NCBI GenBank assembly: GCA_016841875.1
Contig: JAENYG010000018.1
Coordinates: forward strand, 1 to 64,000
Source: Syntrophomonas sp.
GTDB taxonomy: Bacteria > Bacillota > Syntrophomonadia > Syntrophomonadales > Syntrophomonadaceae
Direction: 5' to 3'
Length of the DNA stretch: 64,000 nucleotides
Translations under genes and position numbers: made by a program
The notes under the pieces: model-generated
The model's database searches: none
What the model was told of the DNA's origin: nothing
Seen by the model: the letters and a program-made list of their open reading frames with translations, nothing else
In this document: one piece after another, positions 13,905-63,535 of the stretch
Layout of the letters: each line of letters opens with the position of its first letter
Position numbering within the stretch: the first letter of the stretch is position 1

Positions 13905-13905
13905 C

Positions 13906-15778: not shown

Positions 15779-16362
15779 TGATGATTTTCTGCAAGAGCAA
15801 GAGAGCAGCCAGTCGCACGTTAGACCACATCCTCCCATACATCGAAGGAAAATTATTTCTGAGAGTGAATCGGGAGAAAACACAGGTAGCATACGTGGGC
15901 AAGGTCAAATATTTGGGGTACAGCTTCTACATCTGCAAAGGAGAAGGAAGGCTCAGAATACACCCCAAGAGTGTCCGAAAACTCAAGGATAAAATCCGGG
16001 AAATTACAGGACGCAGCAACGGGATGGGAATTGAGGCAAGAAAAATCCGGCTGAACCAGATGGTTCGAGGATGGATGAATTACTTCAAACTGGCAGATGC
16101 AAAGAAGCTAATACAGGGCTTAGATGAATGGATTAGAGCCCGCATACGGATGGGAACATGGAAACGATGGAAGAAAATCCGCACACGTTTCGAGAATCTC
16201 AAGCGCTCAGGAATCAAGGAAGAACAGGCATGGATGTGGGCAAATACAAGAAAAGGCTACTGGCGTACTGCCCATAGCCCAATCTTAACAAGAGCCTTAT
16301 CCAATGAGAGGTTCAAACGCGCCGGATACCTCAGTCTGACTGAATGTTACTCTGCAAAGTAA
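15778..16362 (+). CDS. Outer-intron reverse transcriptase, C-terminal part with maturase domain
   Basis: Continues the outer RT immediately after YADD: LMIFCKSKRAASRTLDHI, FLRVNREKTQVAYVGKVKYLGYSFY, then a maturase region with NQMVRGWMNYFKLADAKK and a C-terminal thumb-like segment. It has no start codon or ribosome site of its own; an upstream GTG at 15754 lies in inner-intron domain VI. It therefore depends on splicing. Together with the N-terminal part the protein would have about 470 residues, normal for a bacterial intron RT. I see no frameshift inside either half. Confidence 0.85.
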   Translation: MMIFCKSKRAASRTLDHILPYIEGKLFLRVNREKTQVAYVGKVKYLGYSFYICKGEGRLRIHPKSVRKLKDKIREITGRSNGMGIEARKIRLNQMVRGWMNYFKLADAKKLIQGLDEWIRARIRMGTWKRWKKIRTRFENLKRSGIKEEQAWMWANTRKGYWRTAHSPILTRALSNERFKRAGYLSLTECYSAK

Positions 16363-16453
16363 TGTGTAAACTTTGGAAGCGCCGTATACCGAACGGTACG
16401 TACGGTGCTGTGGGAGGTCGGCTACTCAATTAATGGGTAGCCTCCTACCCGAT

Positions 16454-32499: not shown

Positions 32500-32639
32500 C
32501 CCTGTGTAAGAGAGCATAACATTTTTATTGTGGCATTCTGGCATTATATGGAATGCAGCAATGGATTTAAATACCTGGCCTGGCAGGGAGGAATTTCTGC
32601 AGCGAATGGAGAATTTATATTTCAACAAATTTATATTAT

Positions 32640-32790
32640 CTCCGAGCTTTTTTACCTACGGTGCAGCTAGGGTAAAAAAGCCGATGGGTATACCTGGAAA
32701 CAGGCCTGCCTCCCATGTTGGAAAGGAGAACGCCGCGATCATCAGTGTGCCTGGGATGGGAGTTTTTCGCCTACCCGGGTTTTTTTTGTT
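32640..32790 (+). ncRNA. Moco/Tuco-riboswitch-like leader, copy 1, with terminator
   Basis: First of four related leaders. Conserved parts: CTCCGAGC at 32640, helix A GCTTTTTTACC (32646-32656)/GGTAAAAAAGC, CCGATGGGT, helix B CCTG-GAAA-CAGG, GCCTCCC, then TTGGAAAGGAG near 32718-32728 and CGCCGCG. An intrinsic terminator follows: CCTGGG...CCCGGG ending in TTTTTTTT (about 32751-32789). It stands before the operon of the Ig-like protein and the FecCD-type importer. The class is assigned from memory of the Moco consensus; ligand unproven. Confidence 0.7.
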
Positions 32791-32821
32791 TATTTTCTAA
32801 TTTCGTTGAGGAGGGAATTTG

Positions 32822-33601
32822 GTGACAAGGAGAAGTTTTGGGAGTAGAAAATGTTTTTTTATTGTTGCTTTGTTGTTGGTGATATTTCTGGCTGCTCCAG
32901 TTCTAGCAGCTGATGGAGACGGAACTGGTGGAGGAGATGAGCCTTTGACTTTGGAGTCTTCGAGTATCGCTGATGGAACTGCCGGGGTTGACATTGCCAC
33001 TGATCGGATTACATTAACCTTCAGTAAAAATGTTGTTAATATGACAGTAAAGGATAATAATGCCGCCTGTTTCGCAATCACTGCCGATGGTGCTGCGGTA
33101 CCGTTTACAGTAGAAATGGCAGATGATCAGCTTTATCGGGAACTGAGGCGTGATATTGTACTGCGGTTTAGTGCTGAGCTGAGGCCTGCTGCGGCATATT
33201 CGGTAACGGTATCTCCTAACTTGATGTCTAAAAGCGGAGTATATCTAGGTGAGGAAGTTACGGTGAAGTTTACAACTGCAGGCAATATAATAACGGCTGC
33301 ACCTGACCAACCTGTTGTCGATAGTAGTGAAAAAGCTGCTGGGGAAGAAGATCATAGCCAGATTACTCCAGACCTGGAGAAGGAGGCAGAAGTTATTATC
33401 GACCAAGAAGCATCAGATACTGAAGATATCCTGGTTAGTACTGAAGGAGAAACGGCTGCCGAAGAAGCTACCGGCGGAACGATTGAAGACAAAAATGCTT
33501 CAGAATCTGCCGGAGGAAACAATATCCCCATAATACTAGCGATTACTGCGATCATCATTATGGCAGCTTATATATTAATTAGAAAAAAACAAAAAAACTG
33601 A
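32822..33601 (+). CDS. Exported, membrane-anchored protein with an SbsA-type Ig-like domain
   Basis: 259 aa. N-terminal signal peptide (FFIVALLLVIFLAAPVLAA), an Ig-like domain at about 38-145 of the SbsA/Big_5 kind (starting with TAGVDIATDRITLTFSKNV and ending VTVKFTTAG), a long acidic Glu/Ala/Thr-rich linker, and a C-terminal transmembrane helix with a basic tail (IPIILAITAIIIMAAYILIRKKQKN). So it is a cell-surface protein held at its C-terminus. GTG 32822 follows GAGGAGGGA; TTG 32819 is equivalent. As first gene after the riboswitch-like leader and just before an ABC importer, it may help capture the metal oxyanion or chelate (inference). Confidence 0.75.
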   Translation: MTRRSFGSRKCFFIVALLLVIFLAAPVLAADGDGTGGGDEPLTLESSSIADGTAGVDIATDRITLTFSKNVVNMTVKDNNAACFAITADGAAVPFTVEMADDQLYRELRRDIVLRFSAELRPAAAYSVTVSPNLMSKSGVYLGEEVTVKFTTAGNIITAAPDQPVVDSSEKAAGEEDHSQITPDLEKEAEVIIDQEASDTEDILVSTEGETAAEEATGGTIEDKNASESAGGNNIPIILAITAIIIMAAYILIRKKQKN

Positions 33602-33646
33602 TGATTTAGAAGTTATTGTAATTGATATAAAGAACCGGAGGACTTA

Positions 33647-34654
33647 GTGAAGAAGAAAATATGCGCCTTAATTTTTATTACCGCTCCCCTGTTGGTGATC
33701 TTTTTTTCTCTATTTATCGGTAGATATCCGGTTTCCGTCACCAAGGTTCTGCAGGTACTCTGGTCAGGAAACACAGCTTCCACCGGGGGACCGCCTGATG
33801 TTTTAAACACTTTGATCTGGCAGATCAGAATGCCGCGTGCGATTCTGGGTGCTATGGTGGGGGGATGCCTGGCTATAAGCGGGGCTGCTTTTCAGGGTTT
33901 ATTCAGAAATCCCCTGGTGAGTTCAGGAATATTGGGAGTAAGTGCAGGTGCGGGTTTTGGTGCCGCCCTATCCATTCTGATCTTCCACTCGGTTACAGCA
34001 GCTACCTATGTTTTTGCATTTGTGTTCGGACTGCTGGCGGTATTTCTTAGTTTTTTGATAAGTAAGGTATACAATTCTTCGCCTACCATCATGCTGGTTC
34101 TAGGTGGTGTAATTGTAGGATCAATATTTTCCGCTTTAATATCCTTTGCGAAATATGCGGCTGATCCTTATGAAGAATTACCGGCCATAGTATTCTGGTT
34201 AATGGGAAGTCTGGCTAATTCCAGTTATAAGGACATTCTGGTGGCAGGAATTCCAATGCTATTAGGTATAATCGGTCTAGTACTTATACGTTGGAGAATA
34301 AACGTGCTTTCCATGGGGGACCGAGAAGCCCATGCCCTGGGCATTAATCTGGCAGTTGACAAAGGGCTGGTTATCATATGCTCTACACTAGCTGCTGCGG
34401 GAGCTGTTTGTGTTAGCGGGGTGATCGGATGGGTGGGACTGGTGATCCCTCATATTGCCCGGATGTTAGTAGGTAATGACAACCGAGTCTTGATCCCCAC
34501 CAGTTTATCGCTAGGGGCATGTTTTATGGTTTTGGTAGATGATGTGGGCCGGATTATTACCGGTTCTGAGATGCCGTTGGGGATACTAACTTCATTGATA
34601 GGGGCACCTTTCTTTATATGGCTGCTGAAAAAAACTAAAGCAGGTGGATGGTGA
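33647..34654 (+). CDS. FecCD/BtuC-type ABC importer permease
   Basis: 335 aa, about ten transmembrane helices. Family blocks: RMPRAILGAMVGGCLAISGAAFQGLFRNPL, GVSAGAGFGA, FWLMGSL, CVSGVIGWVGLVIPHIARMLVGNDNR and the C-terminal EMPLGILTSLIGAPFF. This family usually carries siderophores, cobalamin or heme, but the MolBCA branch imports molybdate/tungstate. The leader RNA shared with the two oxyanion importers nearby supports Mo/W. GTG behind CCGGAGGAC. Confidence 0.93.
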   Translation: MKKKICALIFITAPLLVIFFSLFIGRYPVSVTKVLQVLWSGNTASTGGPPDVLNTLIWQIRMPRAILGAMVGGCLAISGAAFQGLFRNPLVSSGILGVSAGAGFGAALSILIFHSVTAATYVFAFVFGLLAVFLSFLISKVYNSSPTIMLVLGGVIVGSIFSALISFAKYAADPYEELPAIVFWLMGSLANSSYKDILVAGIPMLLGIIGLVLIRWRINVLSMGDREAHALGINLAVDKGLVIICSTLAAAGAVCVSGVIGWVGLVIPHIARMLVGNDNRVLIPTSLSLGACFMVLVDDVGRIITGSEMPLGILTSLIGAPFFIWLLKKTKAGGW

Positions 34655-34658
34655 TAGT

Positions 34659-35465
34659 ATGGCATTGGTAGAAGTTTTAGACGGAGCATTTGCTTATAAT
34701 AAAACCCGGATTTTTACTAACATCAACCTGTCAGTTGAGCAAGGTGATATATTCTGCCTGCTGGGGCCCAATGGGTGTGGCAAGACCACCTTGATAGATT
34801 GTATCCTGGGCATGCATATGCTGGATGAAGGAAAAATATTAATAAATGGCCTGGATGCCCAAAAATTCCATCCCGGTGAGTTGGCCAGATATGTAGCTTA
34901 CGTTCCACAGAACCATGAGCGTACTTTCCCTTACAAGGTTTTAGATATCGTACAGATGGGACGTGCGGCATATACTGGCAGGTTTTCTTCTCCAAGTCAG
35001 CAGGACCAGGATATAGCTGCAGAGTCACTGGCTATGGTAGGACTAATAAATCTAAAAGACCGCCCTTATACACAGCTCAGCGGCGGTGAGGGTCAATTGG
35101 TGATGCTGGCCAGGGCACTGGCCCAACAGACTCCATTGATCATAATGGACGAACCCACTGCTCATCTTGATTTTAAACATGAGATGCTGGTTCTGGAAAC
35201 GATTCTAGATCTAGTGAAAAATCAGAATTTAACTGTTATCATGGCTACACATTTTCCTAATCATGCTTTCTGGTTCGAGAATAATGGTCTGAAAACCCGG
35301 GTGGCGCTAATGCATGAAGAGCATTTTATTGAAGTCGGGCCGCCTATGGATGTGATTTGTGAAAAAAATATGAGATTGCTCTATAACATTGATACCAGGC
35401 TGCTTTCGTTCCGGGTAAATGAGTTAGGTGAAATGCATCAGATTGTACCGGTTAAAACTTTATAA
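34659..35465 (+). CDS. FecE/BtuD-type ABC importer ATPase
   Basis: 268 aa. Walker A GPNGCGKTT, Q-loop YVPQNHE, signature LSGGEGQLVMLARAL and Walker B LIIMDEPTAHLD with a following H-loop (MATHFPNHAF). It energises the permease encoded immediately upstream. ATG 34659 is 4 nt beyond the permease stop and just behind GGTGAT; an in-frame ATG at 34644 would overlap the permease gene. Confidence 0.94.
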   Translation: MALVEVLDGAFAYNKTRIFTNINLSVEQGDIFCLLGPNGCGKTTLIDCILGMHMLDEGKILINGLDAQKFHPGELARYVAYVPQNHERTFPYKVLDIVQMGRAAYTGRFSSPSQQDQDIAAESLAMVGLINLKDRPYTQLSGGEGQLVMLARALAQQTPLIIMDEPTAHLDFKHEMLVLETILDLVKNQNLTVIMATHFPNHAFWFENNGLKTRVALMHEEHFIEVGPPMDVICEKNMRLLYNIDTRLLSFRVNELGEMHQIVPVKTL

Positions 35466-35493
35466 TTGAAAAAGGCAGAGGGAGAGGGAGGAT

Positions 35494-36624
35494 ATGATGT
35501 TAATACTTATGCAAAAAACAAGATTAATAAGCATAGTGACTGTTCTTATTCTGATCAGTGTTTTCTTTATCACTGGCTGTGCACCGTCAGGTGGTCAGGA
35601 TTCAGCCGGAGAACAGAAGACGGGACAGCAGGTTAGGGTGGTCAGAGATTATCTGGATAGGGATGTTGAGGTTCCCCTCGAAGTAAAAAGGATAGCCACC
35701 CTGTATGCTTATACGGGATACGTAACGACTATGCTGGGTCGTGGACAGGATATAGTGGCTATAAACAATGGTTTGAGCCGGGATGTGCTTTTGAATATGG
35801 TATGCCCCGGGATTGGAGAAAACCCGATACCTTTTAGCAGTTCTTCAATTAATATTGAGGAACTGCTAAAAGCGGAACCGGATCTGGTGTTTATTAAAGG
35901 TGACGTGGGTACCAATGCTGCCGAAGTAGAAAAACTTAACAAGTTTAATATACCCTATGTGGTTATTGATTGTAACAATATCGAAGAGCAGATGAGATCA
36001 ATAGAAATAATGGGTGAGGTATTAGGATGCCAGGAACAAGCCCGCAAGTATAATGAATATTTCCAGCAGTGCATTGATCGGGTCCAGACGGTGGTGAAAA
36101 ATATTCCTGAAGAGCAGCGGGTAAGGGTATTCCACTCGATAAATGAGGCCAGCCGGACAGATGTAGCTAACACCCTCCCGGCAGATTGGATGGAGAAGAC
36201 AGGGGTTATCAATGTGTCGTTAGATAAAGACCTTAGATTGGTAGAAGGAAAATATTTCGCCAGCCTGGAACAGATACTGCTCTGGGATCCGGATGTGATA
36301 ATTGCCAACGAAGCCGGAGTAGCAGATTATATACTCACCAACCCTCAATGGGCACCCCTTAAAGCAGTCCAAAATCAGAAGGTCTACCAGATGCCTATCG
36401 GCATTTCTCGCTGGGGCCACCCAGGGGGGCTGGAAACTCCGCTGGCCATCCTATGGACAGCTAAAACAGTTTACCCGGAATACTTTTCGGATCTGGATAT
36501 AGAGGCCGAAGCTAAAACATTTTACCAAGAATTTTTTAATTACGAAGTTTCAGATGAATTAATACAGCAGATTCTAGCCGCTGCCGACATGAGACAGGTA
36601 AAAAACGAGAGACCTCAAGAGTAG
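35494..36624 (+). CDS. ABC importer substrate-binding lipoprotein (FecB/BtuF/MolA type)
   Basis: 376 aa. Lipobox FITGC gives a lipid-modified Cys at residue 29. The rest is the two-lobed periplasmic-binding-like fold with a rigid linking helix: DYLDRDVEVPLEVKRIATLYAYTGYVTTMLG, LLKAEPDLVFI, LLWDPDVIIANE. It delivers substrate to the permease/ATPase pair upstream. Clusters of this class bind metal chelates or, in MolA, bare molybdate. ATG behind GGGAGAGGGAGG. Last gene of the operon; I find no convincing terminator directly after it. Confidence 0.92.
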   Translation: MMLILMQKTRLISIVTVLILISVFFITGCAPSGGQDSAGEQKTGQQVRVVRDYLDRDVEVPLEVKRIATLYAYTGYVTTMLGRGQDIVAINNGLSRDVLLNMVCPGIGENPIPFSSSSINIEELLKAEPDLVFIKGDVGTNAAEVEKLNKFNIPYVVIDCNNIEEQMRSIEIMGEVLGCQEQARKYNEYFQQCIDRVQTVVKNIPEEQRVRVFHSINEASRTDVANTLPADWMEKTGVINVSLDKDLRLVEGKYFASLEQILLWDPDVIIANEAGVADYILTNPQWAPLKAVQNQKVYQMPIGISRWGHPGGLETPLAILWTAKTVYPEYFSDLDIEAEAKTFYQEFFNYEVSDELIQQILAAADMRQVKNERPQE

Positions 36625-36689
36625 GGATAATTTAAGCTCCTATTATCTAATAATGAGCTGGAGTACAGCTTATTAATAATTTCAACTTT

Positions 36690-36912
36690 TGCACTTGGCC
36701 AGGGGTGAGCACGATGTGGTCTGAGCAAGGAAGGAAAGCTTAGCTGTAACCGGAATACAGCTTGAATATCTAGTGCGGCTTAAATTAATTATCTGCCCTT
36801 GATTGGGCAATTAGAGACCGGCTGCGTCATTAATCACGACCAACGGGAGTATGGGTTGTGCCCGGAGGGCCGGAGAGTGCGGCGTGATAAAGCATCATGA
36901 TCGCCTGCTCCA
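36690..36912. ncRNA. Candidate structured RNA in a 363-bp gene-free stretch
   Basis: Between two convergent genes (36625-36987). Helices visible by eye: GAGCA (36707-36711)/TGCTC (36906-36910) closing the whole; AGCTGTA (36742-36748)/TACAGCT (36756-36762); TGCCC (36794-36798)/GGGCA (36805-36809); ATCACG (36833-36838)/CGTGAT (36883-36888). AGTGCGGC occurs twice. The region is more GC-rich than the flanks and has no open frame of note. I do not recognise the family; it could also be a degenerate mobile element. Confidence 0.35.
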
Positions 36913-36987
36913 AAGTCGTTATTATGTCAAGAGCGAAAGTTGTGTTATTTAATAGAGAGTAATGCGGTATATTTCATCTATGTTATT

Positions 36988-37977
36988 TTAATTGGCCCGC
37001 TCCAGTTGATCCAGGTATTCCCTGGAACCTATCAAAACCAGGGTATCTCCTTCATGGATAATAGTATTGCCGCGAACATTGATCATAAACTCAGAATCTC
37101 GAATAATGGCAATGATGGTCATTTTATCCTGATTACCCAGCAGGGTTACAATGTTCTTGCCTATCAGGGATGATCCCGGAACCACGTTAAATTCTTCAAT
37201 ATTAATATGTTCATTTTTTGAGGTGTAGAGCGTATCAATAAGACCAACCGTGAGGGGTTTTACCATAGCCATGGCCATTTGCGAACCAGCTATGAGGGTA
37301 GGGGCAATCACCTTGTCAGCACCTGCCCGGCGCAGTTTTTTCATGGTTTCTGGATTTTCTGCTCTGGATACGATTTTTATCTCAGGATTTACGGAGCGGG
37401 CGGTCAGGGTGATAAATAAATTATAGGCATCATCCGGTAAGGCACATACAATACCTGCTGCCTTCTCTATACCCAGCTCCAGCAGAACCTCATCCTGATT
37501 GGGATCACCGGTTACGGCGGGATGTCCTTTTTCCCGGTTCTTTTCCACCACTTCAGGATCAATATCCACCAGTATATAAGGTACTTTTTCATCTTTCAAA
37601 GCAATTGCTACGTTGCTGCCTACCCGGCCTGCACCACAAATAATGATATGATTTTCCAGGTTTTTAATATACTTATCCTTTTTGTTTTTATCCATAATAT
37701 TACTAATCTGCCTTTCCAGTAATGTATTAGTTATGGCTCCCAGAGCATAAGCAACGACTCCAACACCAATCAGGAGTATTATAAGAAGAAATAATCTTCC
37801 GGCTGGTGTGATAGGGACCAGGTCGCCATAACCGGTAGTAGTGAGGCTTACCACGATAACCCATAATGCATCAAATACCGGCCAATTTTCCAGATAGGCC
37901 AGCCCCAGAGTCCCAGCTACCGTAACTCCTATAAGTGATAGTATAGCACTTAATAATCTTAGTTTGGCTTCTGACAA
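36988..37977 (-). CDS. Potassium channel with RCK (TrkA-N and TrkA-C) domains
   Basis: About 329 aa. Two transmembrane helices flank a pore with the selectivity filter TTTGYGDLVP. Then come a TrkA-N Rossmann domain (IICGAGRVGSNVAIALKDEKVPYILVDIDPE) and a TrkA-C domain (VVPGSSLIGKNIVTL.. to VLIGSREYLDQLERAN). This is an MthK/Kch-like ligand-gated K+ channel. I prefer TTG at 37977 because GGGGAG lies just upstream; an ATG at 38010 adds 11 residues but has no ribosome site. It faces the metal-transport operons convergently and seems unrelated to them. Confidence 0.92.
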   Translation of the reverse strand: MSEAKLRLLSAILSLIGVTVAGTLGLAYLENWPVFDALWVIVVSLTTTGYGDLVPITPAGRLFLLIILLIGVGVVAYALGAITNTLLERQISNIMDKNKKDKYIKNLENHIIICGAGRVGSNVAIALKDEKVPYILVDIDPEVVEKNREKGHPAVTGDPNQDEVLLELGIEKAAGIVCALPDDAYNLFITLTARSVNPEIKIVSRAENPETMKKLRRAGADKVIAPTLIAGSQMAMAMVKPLTVGLIDTLYTSKNEHINIEEFNVVPGSSLIGKNIVTLLGNQDKMTIIAIIRDSEFMINVRGNTIIHEGDTLVLIGSREYLDQLERAN

Positions 37978-38294
37978 ATTAACTCCCCAATTCAACTTTA
38001 ACATTAGCAATGCTGCAGTATTAAAATAGTCCTATGGTTGTCTTTTCTCACATCTATTTGAAGCAGCAGTTCAATTCTGTTTATTGTGAACATATAAATT
38101 GTACAAGAAAAAACGAAGATTGCGCAAGGGATGATATGTTGAAGACAATATTTGTACAATTGTTCTTAAATAGCATTCGTATATTCAGGGTGTTAAGTTA
38201 TTTATCGAAAAAAGATATGCATTTATGAAGGGAATACCATAAAGTTTGACGAATAATGGGAAGAAACAGAAAAAACCAAATATAATAAGATGTT

Positions 38295-38514
38295 CTTCGA
38301 GCTGAAAAATCTAAAGGTGCAAAAGCTTATGATTTACAGCCGATGGGTTAGAATGGAAATGTTCTGGCCTCCCGTGTTTGGAAAGAAGAGCTGATTGGTT
38401 GATAAATAGGTGTTTTTGACACGTTTACGGTGTCTTTCCATTTACTTATTTATGACCAGCATTCAATTGAAGTATGGCCAGCACGGGATAATCCATGTGC
38501 TGGTTATTTATTTT
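38295..38514 (+). ncRNA. Moco/Tuco-riboswitch-like leader, copy 2, with terminator
   Basis: CTTCGAGC at 38295, helix A (GCTG.AAATC with GATTT.CAGC), AGCCGATGGGT, helix B AGAA-TGGAAATG-TTCT, GGCCTCCCGTG and TTTGGAAAGAAGAG. Downstream are a small hairpin GACAC/GTGTC (38418-38434) and an intrinsic terminator CCAGCAC (38478-38484)/GTGCTGG (38497-38503) with a T-rich tail. It precedes the Wtp-type tungstate/molybdate importer by 100 nt. The upstream part of this 600-bp gene-free stretch (37978-38294) shows nothing else clear. Confidence 0.7.
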
Positions 38515-38614
38515 AGGGCGTAATTTAAGGTAATTACTATCTAAGGAGGGATGTTTTTAAGTCTAAAGGGATGGATCACTTAACATAGAATTTGAAAGAG
38601 GAGGAGAGTATAGA

Positions 38615-39631
38615 ATGTTTAAGAAAAGGACCTGGATAATATTTATGCTGTTACTATTTGCAGTTACTTGCGTGCTGGGAGGGTGTGGAGGAAGTAATGC
38701 CACTAATCCGGAACCAGCTCCAGAACAGGCAACTGAATTAGAAGGTACGGTAGTAATATACCATGCTGGAAGTCTGGCTATACCTTTTGAAGCTCTGGAG
38801 ACAGAGTTCGAGACTCTTCATCCCAAAGTAGATATTCAGAGAACGTCAGGTGGCAGTACCGCTCTCGGCCGTCAGATAGTAGATCTGGGAGACAAAGTGG
38901 ATATATTTGCTTCAGCAGATTATACCATTATTGATAATGCGCTTATGCCGGATTATGCGACCTGGGATGCCCTTTTTGCAAACAACTCCATGGTGATCAT
39001 GTATACCGATCAGAGTAAGTATGCTGATGAAATAACCAAAGATAACTGGTATGAAATCTTATTAAGAGATGGTGTCAATTATGGACACAGCAACCCCAAT
39101 GATGATCCCTGCGGATACCGGAGCGTTCTATGCTGGCAGCTGGCAGAATTGAAATATGAACAAGAAGGTTTATATCAGCAGTTGTGTGATAGCTGTCCGG
39201 ATGAAAATATCCGTCCCAAATCAGTTGAACTCATATCTCTGCTTGAAACTGGAGCACTGGATTATGCCTTTGAATATGAGAGTGTCGCCCGGCAGCATGC
39301 TGCGGCTAACCAGGCATTCAAGTGGGTGGAACTGCCCAGTAAGGTTAACCTCAGTAACATAGAAGATTCAGAAATTTATGCACAAGCTACTTTGGAAACT
39401 GCCGGTTCTGCTCCAGGAGAAACAGTGACTAGAGTGGGAGAACCTATAGTTTATGGGATCACTATGCCTAATTCAGGTGAGAATACAGAATTGGCTATAG
39501 AGTTCTTGAAATTCTTCTTTGATAAAGAACAGGGTCTCAAGTTACTTGAAGATAACGGCCAACCGGTTCTTGATCCAATAATAGTAAATGGAGATGGTTT
39601 CCCAGAAGATTTAAATACCTTAATACAATAG
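38615..39631 (+). CDS. wtpA: Tungstate/molybdate-binding lipoprotein, WtpA type
   Basis: 338 aa. Lipobox VLGGC gives a lipidated Cys at residue 24. Type II binding-protein fold with the oxyanion-site blocks YHAGSLAIPFEALE, RTSGGSTALGRQI, DIFASADYTIID, DDPCGYRSVLCWQLAE and YAFEYESVARQH, all typical of WtpA rather than ModA. WtpA proteins bind tungstate and molybdate tightly. ATG behind AAGAGGAGGAG. Followed by a hairpin and the permease and ATPase genes. Confidence 0.93.
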   Translation: MFKKRTWIIFMLLLFAVTCVLGGCGGSNATNPEPAPEQATELEGTVVIYHAGSLAIPFEALETEFETLHPKVDIQRTSGGSTALGRQIVDLGDKVDIFASADYTIIDNALMPDYATWDALFANNSMVIMYTDQSKYADEITKDNWYEILLRDGVNYGHSNPNDDPCGYRSVLCWQLAELKYEQEGLYQQLCDSCPDENIRPKSVELISLLETGALDYAFEYESVARQHAAANQAFKWVELPSKVNLSNIEDSEIYAQATLETAGSAPGETVTRVGEPIVYGITMPNSGENTELAIEFLKFFFDKEQGLKLLEDNGQPVLDPIIVNGDGFPEDLNTLIQ

Positions 39632-39654
39632 AGTCTTTAGTTGGAATTATTACA

Positions 39655-39679
39655 GGAGGTCAGGTGAAGCCTGACCTCC
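39655..39679 (+). other. Intercistronic hairpin after the binding-protein gene
   Basis: Perfect 10-bp stem GGAGGTCAGG/CCTGACCTCC with a 5-nt loop and no T-run. Such hairpins often stabilise the binding-protein mRNA relative to the permease part of importer operons. Confidence 0.7.
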
Positions 39680-39700
39680 ACTTTACTTCTGGAGGCAATA

Positions 39701-40498
39701 ATGAATCGAAAAAGGACGGAATCATTATTCATAGTATCTTTTATTACCGGCACAATTATTATGCTGTTCTGTATATACCCGCTCATCAGTACCTTGTTTT
39801 GGACTGAACCGGGAGTTATATTTGATACCTTTAAAGACAAGCAAGTCTTACAGTCCATTTACTTAAGTATGGGGGCAGCAACCATAACTACCATTGTTGC
39901 TTTTATTCTCGGGGTGCCTTTTGCGTATGTCCTGGCTAGAAAAGAATTTAGATTCAAGAGCCTGGTGGAGAGTATAGTAGATATACCTATTGTAATACCA
40001 CATCCCGTAGCCGGGATCTGTCTTTTGACTGTTATCAGCCCCCGCAGCTGGACCGGGCAATTGATGGAAAAGGCAGGTATCGAGGTGCTGGGAACCGTTG
40101 CAGCTATTGTGCTGGCCATGACCTTTGTAAGCATGCCTTTCTTGATCAATGCTGCCAAAGAGGCATTTAAATGGGTACCGCCTCGGATGGAGAATGTATC
40201 CCGCACTCTGGGAGCCAGCCATACCCAGACGTTTTTTCTAATAACTTTTTCTCTGGCCTGGAGGGACATATTGAGCGGTATGATATTGACCTGGGCCCGT
40301 GCTATCAGTGAATTCGGGGCAGTAATAATTTTAGCTTATCATCCCATGATAGCACCGACCGTGATTTATGAACGCTTTACCGCATATGGGATGATGTATG
40401 CTGTTCCGGTAGCAGTGATCTTAATAATATTGTGTTTGATCATGTTTATTATTTTGAGGCTTTTGGCATCAACCCGCAGGGAGGGGGAAAGCATATGA
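39701..40498 (+). CDS. wtpB: Tungstate/molybdate ABC permease, WtpB type
   Basis: 265 aa, six predicted transmembrane helices. It carries the binding-protein-dependent permease EAA-loop: NVSRTLGASHTQTFFLITFSLAWRDILSGMILTWARAISEFGAVIILAYHP. Partner of WtpA upstream and the ATPase downstream. ATG behind CTGGAGGCA. Its stop overlaps the ATG of the ATPase gene (ATGA), so the two are translationally coupled. Confidence 0.93.
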   Translation: MNRKRTESLFIVSFITGTIIMLFCIYPLISTLFWTEPGVIFDTFKDKQVLQSIYLSMGAATITTIVAFILGVPFAYVLARKEFRFKSLVESIVDIPIVIPHPVAGICLLTVISPRSWTGQLMEKAGIEVLGTVAAIVLAMTFVSMPFLINAAKEAFKWVPPRMENVSRTLGASHTQTFFLITFSLAWRDILSGMILTWARAISEFGAVIILAYHPMIAPTVIYERFTAYGMMYAVPVAVILIILCLIMFIILRLLASTRREGESI

Positions 40499-41517
40499 TA
40501 GAAGTAAAAAACTTATTCCTCCAACTGGGCGAGTTCAACATAAAAGATCTTAGCCTTTCTATAAACACGGGTGAGTATTTTGTCCTCCTGGGACCGACCG
40601 GGAGTGGTAAGACTGTACTATTGGAATCTATTGCTGGATTAAAGTCTATTCAGGCGGGGAGCATTTATATTAATAAAGAGGAGGTTACCGGAAAAAAACC
40701 AGAGGATCGGAATATTTCGATTTGCTACCAGGATCTGGCATTATTTCCGCATATGCGGGTCAAGGACAATATCAAATATGGCCTCCGTTTTCGGAGGGAT
40801 ACTAATACGCTGAAATATGAGAAGAATTTTGAGATACTGATAGAGTTATTAAGGATAAACCATATACTGGATAGATATCCGGTGTTTTTAAGCGGGGGTG
40901 AAAAGCAGCGGGTAGCCTTAGCCCGGGCCCTGATTGTAGATCCAGATATTCTTCTGCTGGATGAACCCCTGACTGCCCTGGATTCAGGGATGAAAGCTAC
41001 AATAGAAGAAGAGCTGAAAAATATACATGAAACTTTAAAAATTACTATACTTATGGTCACCCATGATTTCAAAGAAGCCTACTACCTGGCGGACCGGGTT
41101 GGAATAATCAAAGATGGCAGTATCATGCAGATTGGTCCGATTGAGGAGGTGTTTGAAAAACCTACTTCGATTTGTACGGCTGATTTTGTGGGTATGAAAA
41201 ACCTGCTGAAGATCGATGAACTTAAGAAAAAACCAGTATTTGAAGTGCTATTAAAACAAATTGAAAACAGTGCAGAATTCATCGGTATCAGGCCGGAAAA
41301 TATCGTAATAAGCAATAAAATCATAGACGACTGTTGCAGTATTTTCGGGAGAATATCCCATATCAGAAATAATGGTATATATCGTGAAATAGATATTAGC
41401 AGCCATGGAGTTGAGTTCAAGGCTTACTTGACTGCCAACAGTTATAATGATCTTCAGCTCTTTAAAGGAAAAGAAGTTTTTTTTGGAATAGATATTTCAA
41501 GGGTCGCTATCATATAA
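40495..41517 (+). CDS. wtpC: Tungstate/molybdate ABC ATPase with C-terminal TOBE-like domain, WtpC type
   Basis: 340 aa from ATG 40495, behind GGGAGGGGG. Walker A GPTGSGKTV, Q-loop CYQDLALFPHM, signature LSGGEKQRVALARAL, Walker B ILLLDEPLTALD and H-loop VTHDFKEA. The C-terminal 100 residues (FIGIRPENIVIS.. onward) resemble the TOBE/MOP oxyanion-sensing module, suggesting trans-inhibition by intracellular molybdate or tungstate. The operon ends in a GC-rich hairpin 3 nt later. Confidence 0.93.
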   Translation: MIEVKNLFLQLGEFNIKDLSLSINTGEYFVLLGPTGSGKTVLLESIAGLKSIQAGSIYINKEEVTGKKPEDRNISICYQDLALFPHMRVKDNIKYGLRFRRDTNTLKYEKNFEILIELLRINHILDRYPVFLSGGEKQRVALARALIVDPDILLLDEPLTALDSGMKATIEEELKNIHETLKITILMVTHDFKEAYYLADRVGIIKDGSIMQIGPIEEVFEKPTSICTADFVGMKNLLKIDELKKKPVFEVLLKQIENSAEFIGIRPENIVISNKIIDDCCSIFGRISHIRNNGIYREIDISSHGVEFKAYLTANSYNDLQLFKGKEVFFGIDISRVAII

Positions 41518-41520
41518 AAG

Positions 41521-41545
41521 GCCGCTTTGCTGATAGCAAAGCGGC
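41521..41545. terminator. Shared terminator between convergent Wtp and Mod operons
   Basis: Perfect 10-bp stem GCCGCTTTGC/GCAAAGCGGC with loop TGATA. On the plus strand the tail is only moderately T-rich; on the minus strand a CTTTTATA tail follows. It probably serves both directions. Confidence 0.75.
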
Positions 41546-41590
41546 TCATACTCTTGACAAACTCAACAAGATGGCAGGGCGCCTTTTATA

Positions 41591-42310
41591 TCAGCTTCCC
41601 AGGAAACACCAGCGTTCCAGGCCCATGAGTTTTGTTGCTGCAGCACCTGTAGTGCCAAAGAATAAAGCAGGTTTATCGTAGCAGTAATCGGTGATAGTTG
41701 CATTAACTACAGTACTGCCGGTGGCGACGATGAGATCACACCAATCCAGTACCTCGCGAGTTGCTCCGGGACCTTCGATCAGCACCCCGGATTTGATCTG
41801 GCCAATGTTATCTGCATCTAGGTCTACTGCGCGCACTTCAAATACCTCTTGCAGTTTTTCCAGCATAGCCGGCTGAAATCCTATGAGCGCTACTCTGGGG
41901 GTTCCGAATTTATCCTTGATATGCTGTGCCAATTCCAGCGAACAGCGTTCGGGATCCTCATTATGGCAGTGAATGGTCTTATCAACCTGACCCAGGTATC
42001 TAAGTACTGCATTCATAGTGGATATTAAGACCGCCCGATCTAAGTTGCTCTCCGGTTTTTTAGCCAGTACCTCTTTTAAAGTCCCCTGGAAATCCCCAGC
42101 CATATCGGTAAAAGCCTGCCCCTTTTGATCTTTGAATACCGCCTGCATTAGTTTTTCTTTTCCTTTCACAATAGGATAATCCTGGCGCTGTGGGCTGCCG
42201 ATAGCTTCCTCGACAGATAGGGTTCGGCCGGTAACAAGTATTTCTTCATCCAGAAGTCCGTTTTTCTCGACGATTTGCCGAAATTTATCTATCAGCTGAT
42301 CATAAAACAA
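41591..42310 (-). CDS. DUF364 (putative heavy-metal chelation) protein
   Basis: 239 aa of the DUF364 family: N-terminal LSVEEAIGSPQRQDYPIVKGKE, central TMNAVLRYLG, C-terminal Rossmann-like half with VALIGFQPAMLEKL, VRAVDLDADNIG, CDLIVATGSTVVNATI and FFGTTGAAATKLMG. Members often sit beside molybdate or iron importers and were proposed to chelate metal, but no activity is established. Here it is the last gene of the modABC operon, 29 nt after the ATPase gene, so a role in handling imported Mo/W is reasonable inference. Confidence 0.85.
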   Translation of the reverse strand: MFYDQLIDKFRQIVEKNGLLDEEILVTGRTLSVEEAIGSPQRQDYPIVKGKEKLMQAVFKDQKGQAFTDMAGDFQGTLKEVLAKKPESNLDRAVLISTMNAVLRYLGQVDKTIHCHNEDPERCSLELAQHIKDKFGTPRVALIGFQPAMLEKLQEVFEVRAVDLDADNIGQIKSGVLIEGPGATREVLDWCDLIVATGSTVVNATITDYCYDKPALFFGTTGAAATKLMGLERWCFLGS

Positions 42311-42339
42311 CTAATCAACACCTCCTGTAATTAATTTGA

Positions 42340-43374
42340 TTATAACACGTGTACGGCAGCACTCTTAAATGTAACCCAAACCGGCACATCCTTCTGCAAT
42401 CCCATTTCTTCAACTGCCTGCATGGTTACCAGGGCTGTAAGAGCAACGCCAGCATCGACCGTTACCCGGTATAAAGGTCCCTGATGAATCATATTAATAA
42501 TTTTACCCGGTATATTATTCTGGGCACTGGAAAACAATTTTTCACGGGAAAGAATAATATCTTCCGGGCGTATGGTCAAGGTTGAGGGACCAGTTTTATC
42601 TATGATAGTCTCAATATTTATGCTGTTTGATATTTCAATAGTTTTTCCGCGGGCATTTCCCTCGATAATATTTTCTGCACCTACAAAATCAGCTACAAAA
42701 TGTGAATTGGGATGACGAAAGACTTCCATAGGCTTTCCAACCTGCATAATCTCACCATTATGCAGGACTCCCACCTGGCTGCCCAGAGCCATGGCTTCTG
42801 AGAAATCATGGGTGATATGCAGAGTGGTGGTTTTTAAATTATCATGGATCCTGCGTAGTTCTTCCTGGAATATCTGCTTGGTGCGGGGATCTAGAGCACT
42901 GAGAGGTTCGTCTAAGAGCAGTATGCGGGGAGAAGTTACCAGTGCTCTGGCAATTGCAGTTCTTTGCTGTTCTCCTCCGCTCAGGGTAGAGGGAAACCTA
43001 TCCAGAAGATATTCAATATTAAGAAAATCAACAATTTCTTTAAAACGTTTATTCCCTTCGTTAACATCAATACCCCGGCATTTAATACCGAAAAAAATAT
43101 TTTCTTTTACAGTGAGATGAGGGAATAATGCATAATCCTGATAAACAAAACCAATACTGCGCTGTTCCGGGTATAAATCACTGATTTTTGTGTCACCAAA
43201 CCAGATGGATCCCTTATCAGGTTGATACATACCGGCGATTAATTCCAGCAGTACTGTTTTCCCGGTACCGGTTGGTCCCAGCACGATGAAGTATTCATCT
43301 TTTTCTATATTGAGGTTTATATCAGTAAGTTCAAATGAACCTAGTTTTTTAGAAAGATTTTCAATTCGCAGCAA
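42340..43374 (-). CDS. modC: Molybdate/tungstate ABC ATPase with C-terminal TOBE-like domain
   Basis: 344 aa. Walker A GPTGTGKTV, Q-loop VYQDYALFPHLT, signature LSGGEQQRTAIARAL, Walker B ILLLDEPLSALD and H-loop ITHDFSEA. After residue 240, TIRPEDIILS and VALTALVTMQAVEEMG indicate a TOBE/MOP oxyanion-binding module. Related to the WtpC at 40.5 kb but clearly distinct. The gap from the permease gene is 15 nt, with GAGGGGAGGGG as ribosome site. Confidence 0.92.
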   Translation of the reverse strand: MLRIENLSKKLGSFELTDINLNIEKDEYFIVLGPTGTGKTVLLELIAGMYQPDKGSIWFGDTKISDLYPEQRSIGFVYQDYALFPHLTVKENIFFGIKCRGIDVNEGNKRFKEIVDFLNIEYLLDRFPSTLSGGEQQRTAIARALVTSPRILLLDEPLSALDPRTKQIFQEELRRIHDNLKTTTLHITHDFSEAMALGSQVGVLHNGEIMQVGKPMEVFRHPNSHFVADFVGAENIIEGNARGKTIEISNSINIETIIDKTGPSTLTIRPEDIILSREKLFSSAQNNIPGKIINMIHQGPLYRVTVDAGVALTALVTMQAVEEMGLQKDVPVWVTFKSAAVHVL

Positions 43375-43389
43375 AATAACCCCTCCCCT

Positions 43390-44214
43390 CTAATACAGGC
43401 TGCTTCGTGACAGTTCATACTGCTTGCCGCCCATGATCTCAAAGAGGAACAGGGAAAGCACAGATATTATTATTAATATGCTGGCTGCGGCCAGAGCCAG
43501 TTTAAGATCGCCGCAGGACATGTTCAAAAACAGGGATACTGGTAAAGTTTCAGTTTTTAAGCGGGTGGCCCCGGCCAGCATCAAAGCTGCACCAAATTCT
43601 CCCAGGGCACGGGCCCAGGTGATAACAATTCCTGCCATAAGACCGCTGCGGGCCAGAGGAAGGGTTATTTTGAAAAAAGCCTGCAGACGGCTGCAGCCCA
43701 GAGTTCTGGCTACAAATTCCATGCGGGGGTCGATATCGTTCATAGTCGAACCCAGTACCTTGATCATATAGGGGACATTAACAAAAAACTGGGCCAGTAT
43801 GATACCCAGGGGAGTAAAAATGAATTGTATTCCTCTGGCAGCCAGTGCATGTCCAAAGTCGGTAGTGCCAAACAGCAGTAATAAGGCTACCCCGGATACT
43901 ATAGGCGGCAGAGCTATGGGGATATCCAGCACCGTACTTACGAAGCGTTTCCCAAAAAATTCAAGGCGGGACATACCGTAGGACACCGGTACAGCTACAG
44001 CTATACAGAGCAAGGTCGAGATAATTGAGGTAGCAAAGCTCAGCTTAATAGCAAACTGAATTTCCCGGGAAAGGATACTGGGTATGATATTAGGTAATCC
44101 CTTCAGAAGTACCATGGAAATAGCTAGAATGATAAAGCCGGTAAGAAATGCGATACTGATCGATATGACGGCAGTAAATAAGATATTCTGTCCTCTTACT
44201 TCTGATTTTTCCAT
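43390..44214 (-). CDS. modB: Molybdate/tungstate ABC permease
   Basis: 274 aa with six transmembrane helices. EAA loop FVARTLGCSRLQAFFKITLPLARSGLMAGIVITWARALGEFGAALMLAGATRLKTETLP, the segment that sits on the ATPase and is typical of ModB/CysT-like permeases. ATG behind AAAGGAGC. Separated from the binding-protein gene by 111 nt holding a nested hairpin. Confidence 0.92.
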   Translation of the reverse strand: MEKSEVRGQNILFTAVISISIAFLTGFIILAISMVLLKGLPNIIPSILSREIQFAIKLSFATSIISTLLCIAVAVPVSYGMSRLEFFGKRFVSTVLDIPIALPPIVSGVALLLLFGTTDFGHALAARGIQFIFTPLGIILAQFFVNVPYMIKVLGSTMNDIDPRMEFVARTLGCSRLQAFFKITLPLARSGLMAGIVITWARALGEFGAALMLAGATRLKTETLPVSLFLNMSCGDLKLALAAASILIIISVLSLFLFEIMGGKQYELSRSSLY

Positions 44215-44254
44215 TAATAAAAGCTCCTTTGTTGCAATATAAGAGGTTGTAGAA

Positions 44255-44295
44255 GTAAAGCAGCCAACACCGAAAGCGGTGTTAAACTGCTTTAC
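44255..44295 (-). other. Nested intercistronic hairpin between the modA and modB genes
   Basis: Outer arms GTAAAGCAG (44255-44263)/CTGCTTTAC (44287-44295) enclose inner arms AACACCG/CGGTGTT with an AAAG loop. Only a short T-poor tail follows. It probably sets a higher level of binding protein than of permease, like the hairpin at 39.66 kb. Confidence 0.7.
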
Positions 44296-44325
44296 TAGTT
44301 ACCTCCATACTATAGGCTGAACTGC

Positions 44326-45138
44326 TTATTGTATGACTTGAAAACCATATTTTTCATAGATGGCTTTTCCTTCCGGTCCGGCTACAAAATCAGCAAATTG
44401 CTGAGCCAATTCAAGTTTTTCTGATGTTTTCAAGACACAGACAGGAAGAGTCTTAACCTGGTTTGATTCATCAGGAATTTGGATCATCTCCACATCTTCA
44501 ACGCCTTGAACATTATCTTCCCATATAATAGTGCAGTCTGCCTGCTTCATTGAAAGGTATACCAGGAGCTCATTGACAGTAGCAGTAGTAGCAACAGTAT
44601 TAGCAGATACTGCCTCATACAAGCCATTTTCGGTCAGCATCTTCTTGGCAGTTTTACCGATAGCAGCTGCTTCAGGATCACCCAGTACTATTTTCAGCCC
44701 GGGAACTGCCATATCTTCAAGACTATGGATATTGGCTGGATTCCCTTCAGGAACAGCAATAACCGGGATATGGTAAGCGAAATTTACCATACTCACAATT
44801 AGATCTTTTTCCTGGGCAGCCTGGCCGTAGTATACGTCACCCGGTGTCCAGGCATCGCCCTGTCCGGTTAACTCGATCTGGCTTAGATTCTGGGCTGAAC
44901 CAGCATAGGAGTATTCTATCATAATATTGTACTTTTCTTCGAAAACCTGACCGATCTCATCCATAGGTTTACGAAGTCCAGCCCCGCTATATACCAGCAG
45001 GCTGTCTGTCGGCTCGGTAACGGCTGGTTCTGATGAGGCTTCCTGAGAAGGGGTATCTGTACTGCTGCTGCATCCAATCAAAGTACTCAGAGCAAAGATA
45101 AGTAAAAAGACCATTAATATTTTTTTGTTTCTAAACAT
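44326..45138 (-). CDS. modA: Molybdate-binding lipoprotein
   Basis: 270 aa. Lipobox LIGC gives a lipidated Cys at residue 23. ModA/type II binding fold: LLVYSGAGLRKPMDEIGQVFEEKYNIMIEYSYAGSAQNLSQIELTGQGDAWTPGD, then VPGLKIVLGDPEAAAIGKTAKKML and a Pro/Glu-rich C-terminal lobe. First gene of the minus-strand operon (modA, modB, modC, DUF364), directly behind a riboswitch-like leader. ATG behind AAAGGATTGGG. Confidence 0.92.
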   Translation of the reverse strand: MFRNKKILMVFLLIFALSTLIGCSSSTDTPSQEASSEPAVTEPTDSLLVYSGAGLRKPMDEIGQVFEEKYNIMIEYSYAGSAQNLSQIELTGQGDAWTPGDVYYGQAAQEKDLIVSMVNFAYHIPVIAVPEGNPANIHSLEDMAVPGLKIVLGDPEAAAIGKTAKKMLTENGLYEAVSANTVATTATVNELLVYLSMKQADCTIIWEDNVQGVEDVEMIQIPDESNQVKTLPVCVLKTSEKLELAQQFADFVAGPEGKAIYEKYGFQVIQ

Positions 45139-45211
45139 TCTCCCAATCCTTTCTTTTTTATAAATCGAACATTCCTATAAAACTGCCTAAATTCACTCCC
45201 TTCTCCAGAAA

Positions 45212-45423
45212 ATAAAAAAGTCTTTTCGTAATTGGAAAAGACTGCGCCTTCAACGTGTTGACAAAATTTTCTTCAAGCATAAATAATGCAGTTATAGATG
45301 CTAAAAGTGAAAGTCAAGCTGCGCATAACTCCTTTCCAAACACGGGAGGCATGATCGTTTCCAGTCATACCCTAGCGACCCGGGTACCATAGCCATTAGC
45401 ATTAGGATTGCCGGGCTCGGAAT
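45212..45423 (-). ncRNA. Moco/Tuco-riboswitch-like leader, copy 3, with terminator
   Basis: Read on the minus strand: TTCCGAGCC, helix A GCCCGG/CCGGGT, GCTAGGGT, helix B ATGA-CTGGAAACG-ATCAT, GCCTCCCGTG, TTTGGAAAGGAG (45329-45340). The intrinsic terminator is AGTCTTTTC (minus copy of 45235-45243)/GAAAAGACT (45219-45227) with a T-run. Located 75 nt before modA. The other half of this 560-bp gene-free stretch, up to the aldehyde dehydrogenase gene at 45700, is AT-rich and without clear structure. Confidence 0.7.
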
Positions 45424-45699
45424 TACAGCTTATAATATTCAGTTTGCCGATTATTCTTCGATGCATGATCGTATGATTGCGTATAATTTTTAACTTAATG
45501 GGTATATGTCTATTATACATGAATTATCTGCTTGGATAAATTAAAAATATATCCCCTGCCATATATTTTAGTTAAGGTCAAATAGATCAAGACAAATCAC
45601 AGGTTTCCCAAAATGAGGGAAAAACAGGAATATATGAATTTCAGTACTATATTTACGTTAAAATAGAATTAAATCTAATTTACTTGGATGGAGGGTAAT

Positions 45700-47085
45700 A
45701 TGCTTAATGATCAAGAGTACGGCGGCTTGTTAGAGCGACAGCGGAATTATTTCAAGCAGGGTAATACCAGAAATCTAGATTTTAGAATTGCTCAGTTAAT
45801 TACCTTAAAAAGGATAATCAAGGCAAGTGAGAATGATCTGTTGGAAGCATTAAGATTAGACCTGGGTAAATGCAGTGTGGAAGGCTATGTAACTGAGATA
45901 AATATTTTGCTTCACGAAATAGATTATATGATCAAAAAGATAAGGTGCTTTAGCAGACCCACTAGAGTAAAGACTTCCCTTATTTACCCTGGGGCCAGGA
46001 GCACAATATACAGCGAACCACGGGGAGTAGTTCTAATAATAGCTCCCTGGAATTATCCGGTGCTGTTACTGCTGACACCACTGGTGGGAGCCATGGCAGC
46101 AGGGAATTGTGCAGTTTTAAAACCTTCCGAGTTTGCTCCGAATGTTTCAAAACTGATGGCAAAAATTATCAGCGAGAATTTTTCTGGTGAATATATTACA
46201 TTAATTGAAGGTGATTCTGAGGCAGCGCAGAGGCTGCTGCAGGATAAGTTCGATTATATATTTTTTACAGGAGGTTTAAGGGTAGGGAAAATGATCATGC
46301 AGGCAGCAGCCCAACACATCACACCGGTAACGTTAGAGCTGGGAGGCAAGAGTCCCTGCATAGTTGACCGGGATATCCATCTTGATATAACAGCTCGGAG
46401 AATAGTCTGGGGGAAGTTCATTAATGCCGGGCAGACTTGTATCGCTCCTGATTATCTGCTGGTACACAAAGACATCCGCAATGAACTGCTGAATAAAATT
46501 ACAGAAATCATTAGAGATTTCTATGGTAGCTGCTCCATTGAATCTAAGCATTATTCACGTATTGTTAATGACCGGCATTTTATGAGACTTACGGGATTGC
46601 TGGAGGAAGGAAACATTATTATTGGAGGAGAGACCAACCGGGAAGAAAGATACATAGCCCCTACGGTTATTGTTGATGTCCCCCTGAGTGGACAGCTGAT
46701 GCAGGAGGAAATATTCGGACCGATCCTTCCTGTTTTTGAATATGAGACTCTTGAAGAAGTAGTTGATATAGTTAATGACAGGCCTAAACCGCTGGCGTTA
46801 TATTTCTTTTCTCACAACCGAGAAAAACAGGACTTCATTCTGAAAGCAAGCCAGTCTGGTGGTGTATGTATAAATGATACTCTAATACACACCAGCAGTT
46901 GCGAACTGCCTTTTGGGGGAGTAGGAGAAAGCGGGATAGGGAGTTATCATGGGAGAGCATCCTTTGATACATTTTCTCATCGTAAAAGTGTTATGAGAAA
47001 TACTTTTCGTATTGATATGGAAATGAAGTATCCTCCATATAAATTATCATTTAAAAACCTGAAAAGACTGATGAAGTTTATGTAA
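45700..47085 (+). CDS. Aldehyde dehydrogenase
   Basis: 461 aa, class-3-like NAD(P)-dependent aldehyde dehydrogenase. Motifs: IIAPWNYPVLLLLTPLVGAMAAGNCAVLKPSE, FFTGGLRVGK, catalytic Glu in VTLELGGKSP, catalytic Cys in NAGQTCIAPDY, EEIFGPILPVFEY and LPFGGVGESGIGSYHGRASFDTFSHRKSV. ATG 45700 follows GGAGGG by 5 nt; an earlier ATG at 45688 overlaps that site. It may interconvert fatty aldehydes and acids. Its 3' end is immediately followed by the terminator of a transcript coming from the opposite strand. Confidence 0.93.
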   Translation: MLNDQEYGGLLERQRNYFKQGNTRNLDFRIAQLITLKRIIKASENDLLEALRLDLGKCSVEGYVTEINILLHEIDYMIKKIRCFSRPTRVKTSLIYPGARSTIYSEPRGVVLIIAPWNYPVLLLLTPLVGAMAAGNCAVLKPSEFAPNVSKLMAKIISENFSGEYITLIEGDSEAAQRLLQDKFDYIFFTGGLRVGKMIMQAAAQHITPVTLELGGKSPCIVDRDIHLDITARRIVWGKFINAGQTCIAPDYLLVHKDIRNELLNKITEIIRDFYGSCSIESKHYSRIVNDRHFMRLTGLLEEGNIIIGGETNREERYIAPTVIVDVPLSGQLMQEEIFGPILPVFEYETLEEVVDIVNDRPKPLALYFFSHNREKQDFILKASQSGGVCINDTLIHTSSCELPFGGVGESGIGSYHGRASFDTFSHRKSVMRNTFRIDMEMKYPPYKLSFKNLKRLMKFM

Positions 47086-47099
47086 AGCATAGCCTGGAT

Positions 47100-47128
47100 A
47101 AAAAAAAGCCCGCTTTAGTCAAAGCGGG
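47100..47128 (-). terminator. Intrinsic terminator reading on the minus strand
   Basis: Minus strand: CCCGCTTT-GACT-AAAGCGGG followed by CTTTTTTTT. On the plus strand no T-run follows, so it mainly ends a minus-strand transcript. The only candidate source is the riboswitch-like leader at 47305-47406. Confidence 0.85.
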
Positions 47129-47304
47129 TAGAAAAAGATTGGGATTGTATGCAAAAGCTCCGAAGAGCCTTTTACCAAAATAAAAAATCGCGCCTATGAA
47201 ATAGATAGACACGACAAATTTCCAATTATACCAGCATAACAGTAATGGCAATAATGCGCACCAAAAACACACATGCCAGCCAACACAGGCATAATTAAAT
47301 AAGA

Positions 47305-47406
47305 TCTTGTCTCCTTTCCACAATAAGGGGAGGCACAGGTGTTTCCTCCTGCACCCAGGTCAATAAACCATAGCAGTGCATGCCTTAGGCATATTAACTC
47401 GGAGTC
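47305..47406 (-). ncRNA. Moco/Tuco-riboswitch-like element, copy 4, without an evident target gene
   Basis: Minus strand: CTCCGAG (47398-47404), helix A GTTAATA/TATTGAC, CTGGGT, helix B GCAGG-AGGAAACA-CCTG, GCCTCCC and TGTGGAAAGGAG (47311-47322). Downstream are about 180 nt, a UUCG-capped hairpin (47152-47173) and a strong terminator at 47100. No known gene follows. A weak 81-codon hydrophobic frame (47323 down to 47078) begins inside the aptamer and runs through the terminator, so I do not accept it as it stands. In the rest of this 710-bp stretch I see an inverted repeat at 47487. Confidence 0.6.
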
Positions 47407-63346: not shown

Positions 63347-63390
63347 TTTGCCGGGGCAGCTTAAAGTCAATTAATAATACAGTTTAATAC

Positions 63391-63535
63391 TCTTATCTAG
63401 AGAGGTGGAGGGAAAGGCCCGATGAAGCCCGGCAACCGCCCATTGAGGTAAGGTGCCAATTCCTGCAGGATAATCCTGAAAGATGAGAGGGGGAAACAGA
63501 TTCATGGACCCTCTCATGTGAGGGTTTTTGTTTTG
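63391..63535 (+). ncRNA. SAM-I (S-box) riboswitch with terminator
   Basis: Canonical S-box pieces in order: P1 CTCTTATC (63391-63398) pairing with GATGAGAG (63482-63489), AGAGGTGGAGGGA, GCCCGATGAAGCCCGGCAACC, GGTGCCAATTCCTGC and GAAAGATGAGAG. The expression platform is ACCCTC (63508-63513)/GAGGGT (63520-63525) with a T-run, alternative to pairing with the GAGAGGGGG of P1. SAM should stop transcription of the metH-type gene that follows. Confidence 0.95.

Follow-up and report, generated by a model that had tools for sequence, protein, structure and literature searches.

A predicted Tuco-type riboswitch ahead of a conserved putative small RNA complementary to formate dehydrogenase mRNA in Syntrophomonas

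Riboswitches and importer operons of the locus

The window (the whole stretch of 64,000 nucleotides of Syntrophomonas sp. DNA that was analysed) carries three importer operons, each preceded by a structured leader RNA. A fourth copy of this leader, copy 4, has no gene behind it and faces the 3' end of a convergent aldehyde dehydrogenase (ALDH) gene (Table 1). The initial annotation had described the four leaders as copies of a single element, and a scan of the 64 kb against 4227 Rfam families found all four at the same positions and on the same strands as matches to RF01055, the Moco/Tuco riboswitch. Each match covers the whole model (position 1 to 135) with E ≤ 7e-15, and the scores of 70.2–73.7 bits are about twice the gathering score of 36.

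Table 1. Features of the riboswitch and importer region, in order along the window
Feature	Position	Strand	Basis or score
Copy 1, P3-less RF01055 aptamer before Big_5 protein and FecCD-type importer	32628-32744	+	73.7 bits
Terminator-like hairpin of copy 1, followed by 8 T	32750-32779	+	sequence
Copy 1 operon: Big_5 protein, FecCD permease, ATPase, Peripla_BP_2 binding protein	32819-36624	+	Pfam, NCBIfam
Copy 2, P3-less RF01055 aptamer before wtpABC	38283-38404	+	71.9 bits
Terminator-like hairpin of copy 2	38478-38503	+	sequence
wtpABC tungstate importer	38615-41517	+	WtpA NCBIfam NF003196, 370.5 bits (cut-off 355)
modABC and DUF364 gene	41591-45138	-	TIGR01256 ModA, 87.3 bits (cut-off 62.5); TIGR01581 permease; PF04016
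Copy 3 terminator	45219-45243	-	sequence; P1 3' strand pairs with terminator 5' arm, z = -2.8
Copy 3, P3-less RF01055 aptamer before modABC	45434-45313	-	70.3 bits
Convergent ALDH gene between copies 3 and 4	45688-47085	+	NCBIfam aldehyde dehydrogenases
Putative sRNA module	47174-47101	-	hairpin 47174-47152, linker 47151-47129, terminator hairpin 47128-47109 and T-run
fdh-complementary stretch CAATCCCAATCTTTTTCTACCCGCTT	47147-47122	-	26-bp predicted duplex with fdh mRNA
Terminator between aptamer and module (expression platform), GTCGTGTCTAT...ATAGGCGCGAT and T-run	47215-47187	-	terminator scan
Copy 4, P3-less RF01055 aptamer, putative sRNA leader	47416-47295	-	70.2 bits

The helices of copies 1–4 are the published P1, P2, P4 and P5. 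P2, including its tetraloop receptor, corresponds to what had been called helix A, and P4, with a GAAA loop, to helix B; the GCCTCCC and TGGAAAGRAG segments fall within P4/P5 and P1 in the Rfam model. The CGCCG part of copy 1, previously thought to be lacking in the other copies, is not a separate domain and sits in the variable 3' flank of P1. In the RF01055 alignment the P3 columns are gapped in all four copies, which places them in the P3-less type. Regulski et al. 2008 (PMC2408646) assigned this type to the tungsten cofactor (Tuco) and found it almost only in organisms with Tuco metabolism; for S. wolfei they list at least 15 copies, with tandem and triple arrangements. The genome of the window (genus Syntrophomonas) contains 18 RF01055 copies. 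The initial annotation had offered either a Moco/Tuco variant or a new Mo/W-responsive class. Because the scores are about twice the threshold and loss of P3 is a described Tuco-type form, the first of these holds and a new class is ruled out. Copies 1–3, ahead of importers, are new members of a known riboswitch class.

As had been noted, copies 1–3 each run into a terminator-like hairpin ahead of an importer operon (FecCD-type, Wtp and Mod, respectively). The first gene behind copy 1, however, encodes a Big_5 (Ig-like) protein, and the FecCD permease comes next (Pfam). The genes under P3-less copies are for uptake or use of W/Mo, namely the WtpABC, ModABC and FecCD-type importers and, elsewhere in the genome, formate dehydrogenase (fdh) and TupA. 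Several RF01055 copies are located ahead of surface proteins or hydrogenase. Surface-protein genes (SLH, fn3, Big_5) lie behind many of them (G000:C15:63738, C21:19655, C21:6509-7259, which is a triple, C39:247 and 518, and 32819-33601 of the window) and form an unexplained part of the Mo/W regulon.

A tandem of a P3-less and then a P3-containing aptamer precedes an fdh operon in all five genomes of the genus (G000:C34:153188-153606, locus L157; G001:C4, G002:C136, G003:C17 and G004:C25), and may act as a two-input switch for Tuco and Moco. The last gene behind modABC (41591-42310, minus strand; see also loci L169 and L174) encodes a DUF364 protein, and in G002 a gene that is similar, judged by the start of its sequence, lies behind a copy-4-type riboswitch and the putative sRNA. 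The DUF364 gene is a candidate Mo/W-linked gene. The window also contains group II intron domains (two Intron_gpII matches, 12763-16453, plus strand) and a SAM riboswitch (63390-63489, plus strand).

A conserved module behind copy 4

Between copy 4 and the ALDH gene there is a terminator, followed by a 74-nt module that consists of a hairpin, the single-stranded stretch CAUACAAUCCCAAUCUUUUUCUA and a second terminator. Terminators had been annotated for copies 1–3 only; copy 4 has one too, with another after it, and the scan finds these two where shuffled sequences give 0.3. The fold of the module has a z of -4.2. No promoter of the type tested was found ahead of copy 4 on its strand. When the five genus genomes are aligned, a stretch of about 110 nt downstream of the aptamer is near-invariant between diverging flanks: the first terminator is kept in all five, and the linker is invariant and single-stranded between the hairpin and the second terminator. 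A riboswitch with a terminator, then a noncoding RNA with a terminator of its own, is the layout of a riboswitch-regulated sRNA. An 81-aa frame on the minus strand (47323-47078) was rejected as a gene, since it is broken by indels between relatives and the RNA block is kept, and an Rfam match to ncS025 at 47171-47099 (30.6 bits, cut-off 46) was attributed to chance resemblance between terminators.

A covariance model of the module (R2) was built from the genus Syntrophomonas only, without reference to fdh. The module of copy 4, which is among the sequences used to build R2, scores 95.5 bits. R2 matches are present in 35 of the 54 family genomes at E ≤ 0.1, although the weakest include fdh sites and probably some chance hits; one weak match (L263, among those near 25-29 bits) proved to be an fdh target site and not an sRNA. 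An Rfam scan of the surroundings placed 30 of the 42 module copies with at least 31 bits 51-175 nt downstream of RF01055 on the same strand, often behind two tandem aptamers and otherwise behind one. Counting one weaker copy (30.0 bits), the riboswitch-linked module occurs in 13 genera of the family. Among its carriers there is G037, a single contig of 2,936,195 bases that we take to be S. wolfei Goettingen, and in two other families of the order three of four module matches are again located behind RF01055. In other genera, the linked aptamers lack P3 wherever the segment is readable. Of 31 linked loci, 30 have a terminator between the aptamer and the module. Hairpin loops differ from module to module, but the linker is retained.

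Six RF01055 copies are crowded into about 1.3 kb of one contig (G032:C37, locus L229, 1659-2936), with both strands represented, and two of the six stand ahead of the sRNA module. A match to the linker pattern in G032:C14, around which the two hairpins and the terminator were not seen, was taken as chance.

The remaining 12 of the 42 module copies have no riboswitch. These riboswitch-free copies are often found a few kilobases behind a second fdh gene on the same strand (L342, at G037:C1:2080674, and L345, L341, L343, L344 and L256), and in one fully read case at the 3' end of the operon. They are possibly 3'-UTR-derived sRNAs for cross-control of fdh isoenzymes.

Complementarity to formate dehydrogenase mRNA

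The search for targets combined pattern matching in whole genomes with duplex energies computed for about 110 kb of the own genome. Allowing one mismatch at most to the full 17-nt pattern or to the 15-nt one, the own genome has only three matches to the linker besides the linker itself. Two of them are antisense inside formate dehydrogenase genes (best family TIGR01553, N-terminal parts only), and the third is located just 3' of the stop codon of a third fdh-type gene. The putative sRNA sequence CAAUCCCAAUCUUUUUCUACCCGCUU can pair over 26 bp with AAGUGGGUAGAAAAAGAUUGGGAUUG, the codons for KWVEKDWDW of an FdnG-type fdh, with a duplex energy of -45.6 kcal/mol, compared with -30.1 for the best other site in the roughly 110 kb. 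The site is well inside the coding region, away from the ribosome site.

Across genera the target site is formed by the codons for KWxEKDWDW. The same pairing is found in nearly all genomes that have both the sRNA and fdh, with z mostly between -4 and -13; pairing is weaker or has mismatches in genus g12 and in G001, G009, G043 and G060. The target in G037, at about 911 kb, is probably fdh2, going by gene position and numbering. Fdh2 is a membrane-bound formate dehydrogenase implicated in interspecies electron transfer (PMC5101538). No RF01055 was found near fdh in the 20 fdh loci scanned, and control in trans would therefore fill a gap.

There is evidence of selection on the pairing. Pairing of sRNAs with their own fdh is stronger than in combinations shuffled across genera (p = 0.00065, 12 genera), and in genus g4, as well as in G057 of another family, an fdh codon change from GAU to GAA is matched by a change from AAUC to AUUC in the sRNA. 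The target codons are nearly fixed (GAA in 48/50, AAA in 50/50, GAA in 36/37, GAT in 33/37 and 34/38), above all 38 background conserved two-fold columns of the gene (maximum 84%), an unusually strong synonymous constraint. The amino acid is variable at three of the five target columns, and these were judged less strictly than the background set. The complementarity is conserved beyond chance and kept by matched changes, which is what marks a base-pairing sRNA, and the sRNA-fdh pairing is strongly supported at the level of sequence.

A proposed tungsten-sparing switch, known systems and alternatives

We consider it likely that copies 1–4 are Tuco-type riboswitches with terminator platforms, with the tungsten cofactor as presumed ligand, and that copy 4 gates a base-pairing sRNA with a tungsten-sparing role; transcription of this RNA, the OFF direction of the switch, and repression and its route are predictions. 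Copies 1–3 would control oxyanion importers in cis. With bound tungsten cofactor, transcription from copy 4 would stop at the first terminator; without it, read-through into the 74-nt module would follow and end at the second terminator. The linker of the module would then base-pair with the KWxEKDWDW codons in the coding region of the FdnG-type fdh mRNA, most likely repressing fdh, probably through mRNA decay or blocked elongation. Cells short of the W/Mo cofactor would thus import more metal and no longer make an enzyme that needs it. Pairing between the P1 3' strand and the 5' arm of the terminator, as expected of an OFF switch, is seen in many loci and gives moderate support, averaging z = -1.7 across 28 loci but close to chance at copy 4; it is the weakest link in the mechanism. 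The ALDH gene is not thought to belong to it. With slightly less confidence, though still on the likely side, we extend the proposal to the order: a Tuco-riboswitch-gated, often tandem, anti-fdh sRNA that would, with no protein sensor, tip syntrophic butyrate degraders from formate towards hydrogen.

If true, cofactor sensing would be joined to metalloenzyme sparing by RNA alone. The predicted target belongs to the formate dehydrogenases that serve interspecies formate transfer. With such a switch, syntrophic bacteria could shut down synthesis of the metal enzyme under scarcity of the tungsten cofactor. It would also give a role to an orphan riboswitch with no other evident purpose, a member of a class described in 2008.

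The proposed metal-sparing logic is that of RyhB-type sRNAs. RyhB is made when the metal is scarce and represses the mRNAs of metal-using enzymes, but it is controlled by the protein Fur, whereas the sensor here would be a riboswitch. LhrC and RsaE/RoxS, multi-copy UCCC/C-rich sRNAs of Firmicutes, are alike in having a C/U-rich single-stranded seed between hairpins, an end terminator and several copies per genome; they mostly bind the ribosome sites of many mRNAs, in contrast to the 20-29 bp match of the putative sRNA inside one gene family. Few riboswitches are known to gate trans-acting RNAs, and those that respond to B12 lead to sequestration of a protein: EutX of Enterococcus faecalis and Rli55 of Listeria are controlled by B12 riboswitches and, when B12 is lacking, lower the B12-dependent pathway (PMC7602753). 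The common logic, on the side of copy 4 a proposed one, is that a cofactor riboswitch terminates the sRNA when the cofactor is present. Cofactor and sequence differ, and EutX and Rli55 sequester the regulator EutV whereas the copy 4 sRNA is complementary to an enzyme mRNA, which suggests a route other than ANTAR protein sequestration. The four aptamers themselves belong to a known class, whose P3-less type and multi-copy and tandem use in S. wolfei are already covered by the portions of the 2008 report cited above (PMC2408646); the new part is that copy 4 leads into a conserved putative sRNA, and an aptamer controlling a noncoding RNA is not described in those portions. Literature searches in a limited library found no anti-fdh sRNA gated by a Tuco riboswitch.

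Among other explanations, it is unlikely, though worth weighing, that the sRNA is real but serves to increase fdh expression, or to adjust one formate dehydrogenase relative to another, instead of sparing metal. The direction of the effect is itself a prediction with moderate antiterminator support, and the frequent position of riboswitch-free copies at the 3' end of a second fdh operon also fits isoenzyme cross-control. However, a terminator after the aptamer in 30 of 31 loci is typical of OFF switches, and long pairing deep in a coding region, as predicted here, is more usual for repression or decay.

There is very little to be said for copy 4 as a functionless remnant, i.e. the upstream half of a tandem pair before modABC that was cut off by the arrival of ALDH. 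Such a tandem does exist in G004, where copy-4-type and copy-3-type aptamers precede modABC with no ALDH gene between them. However, in the near relative G003, where copies 3 and 4 are split by ALDH as in the window, aptamer, terminator and module are near-invariant too, and P3-less riboswitches stand ahead of the module in 13 genera, as well as in two other families, with no need for modABC. It is just as improbable that the module is no RNA regulator at all but a recurring terminator or a copied piece of the fdh antisense strand. It does contain a terminator, and its linker is fdh antisense sequence, but a copied fragment would be expected to drift, whereas sRNA and target change together, the target codons are constrained, and the linker is kept while the hairpin loops vary.

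The tungsten-sparing sRNA also has to be set against copy 4 as an antisense-acting riboswitch on the ALDH gene, a kind of control that has been proposed with an excess for Moco riboswitches (PMC9943018). The likeness lies in the convergent layout, with copy 4 facing a gene, but this is the least probable of the readings considered: the predicted transcript, behind two terminators, ends at 47101, short of the ALDH stop at 47085 and without overlap, its complement is fdh elsewhere in the genome, and the aptamer-module unit is kept in genomes without ALDH at this place. Both of these readings of copy 4, the plain remnant and the ALDH antisense riboswitch, were rejected.
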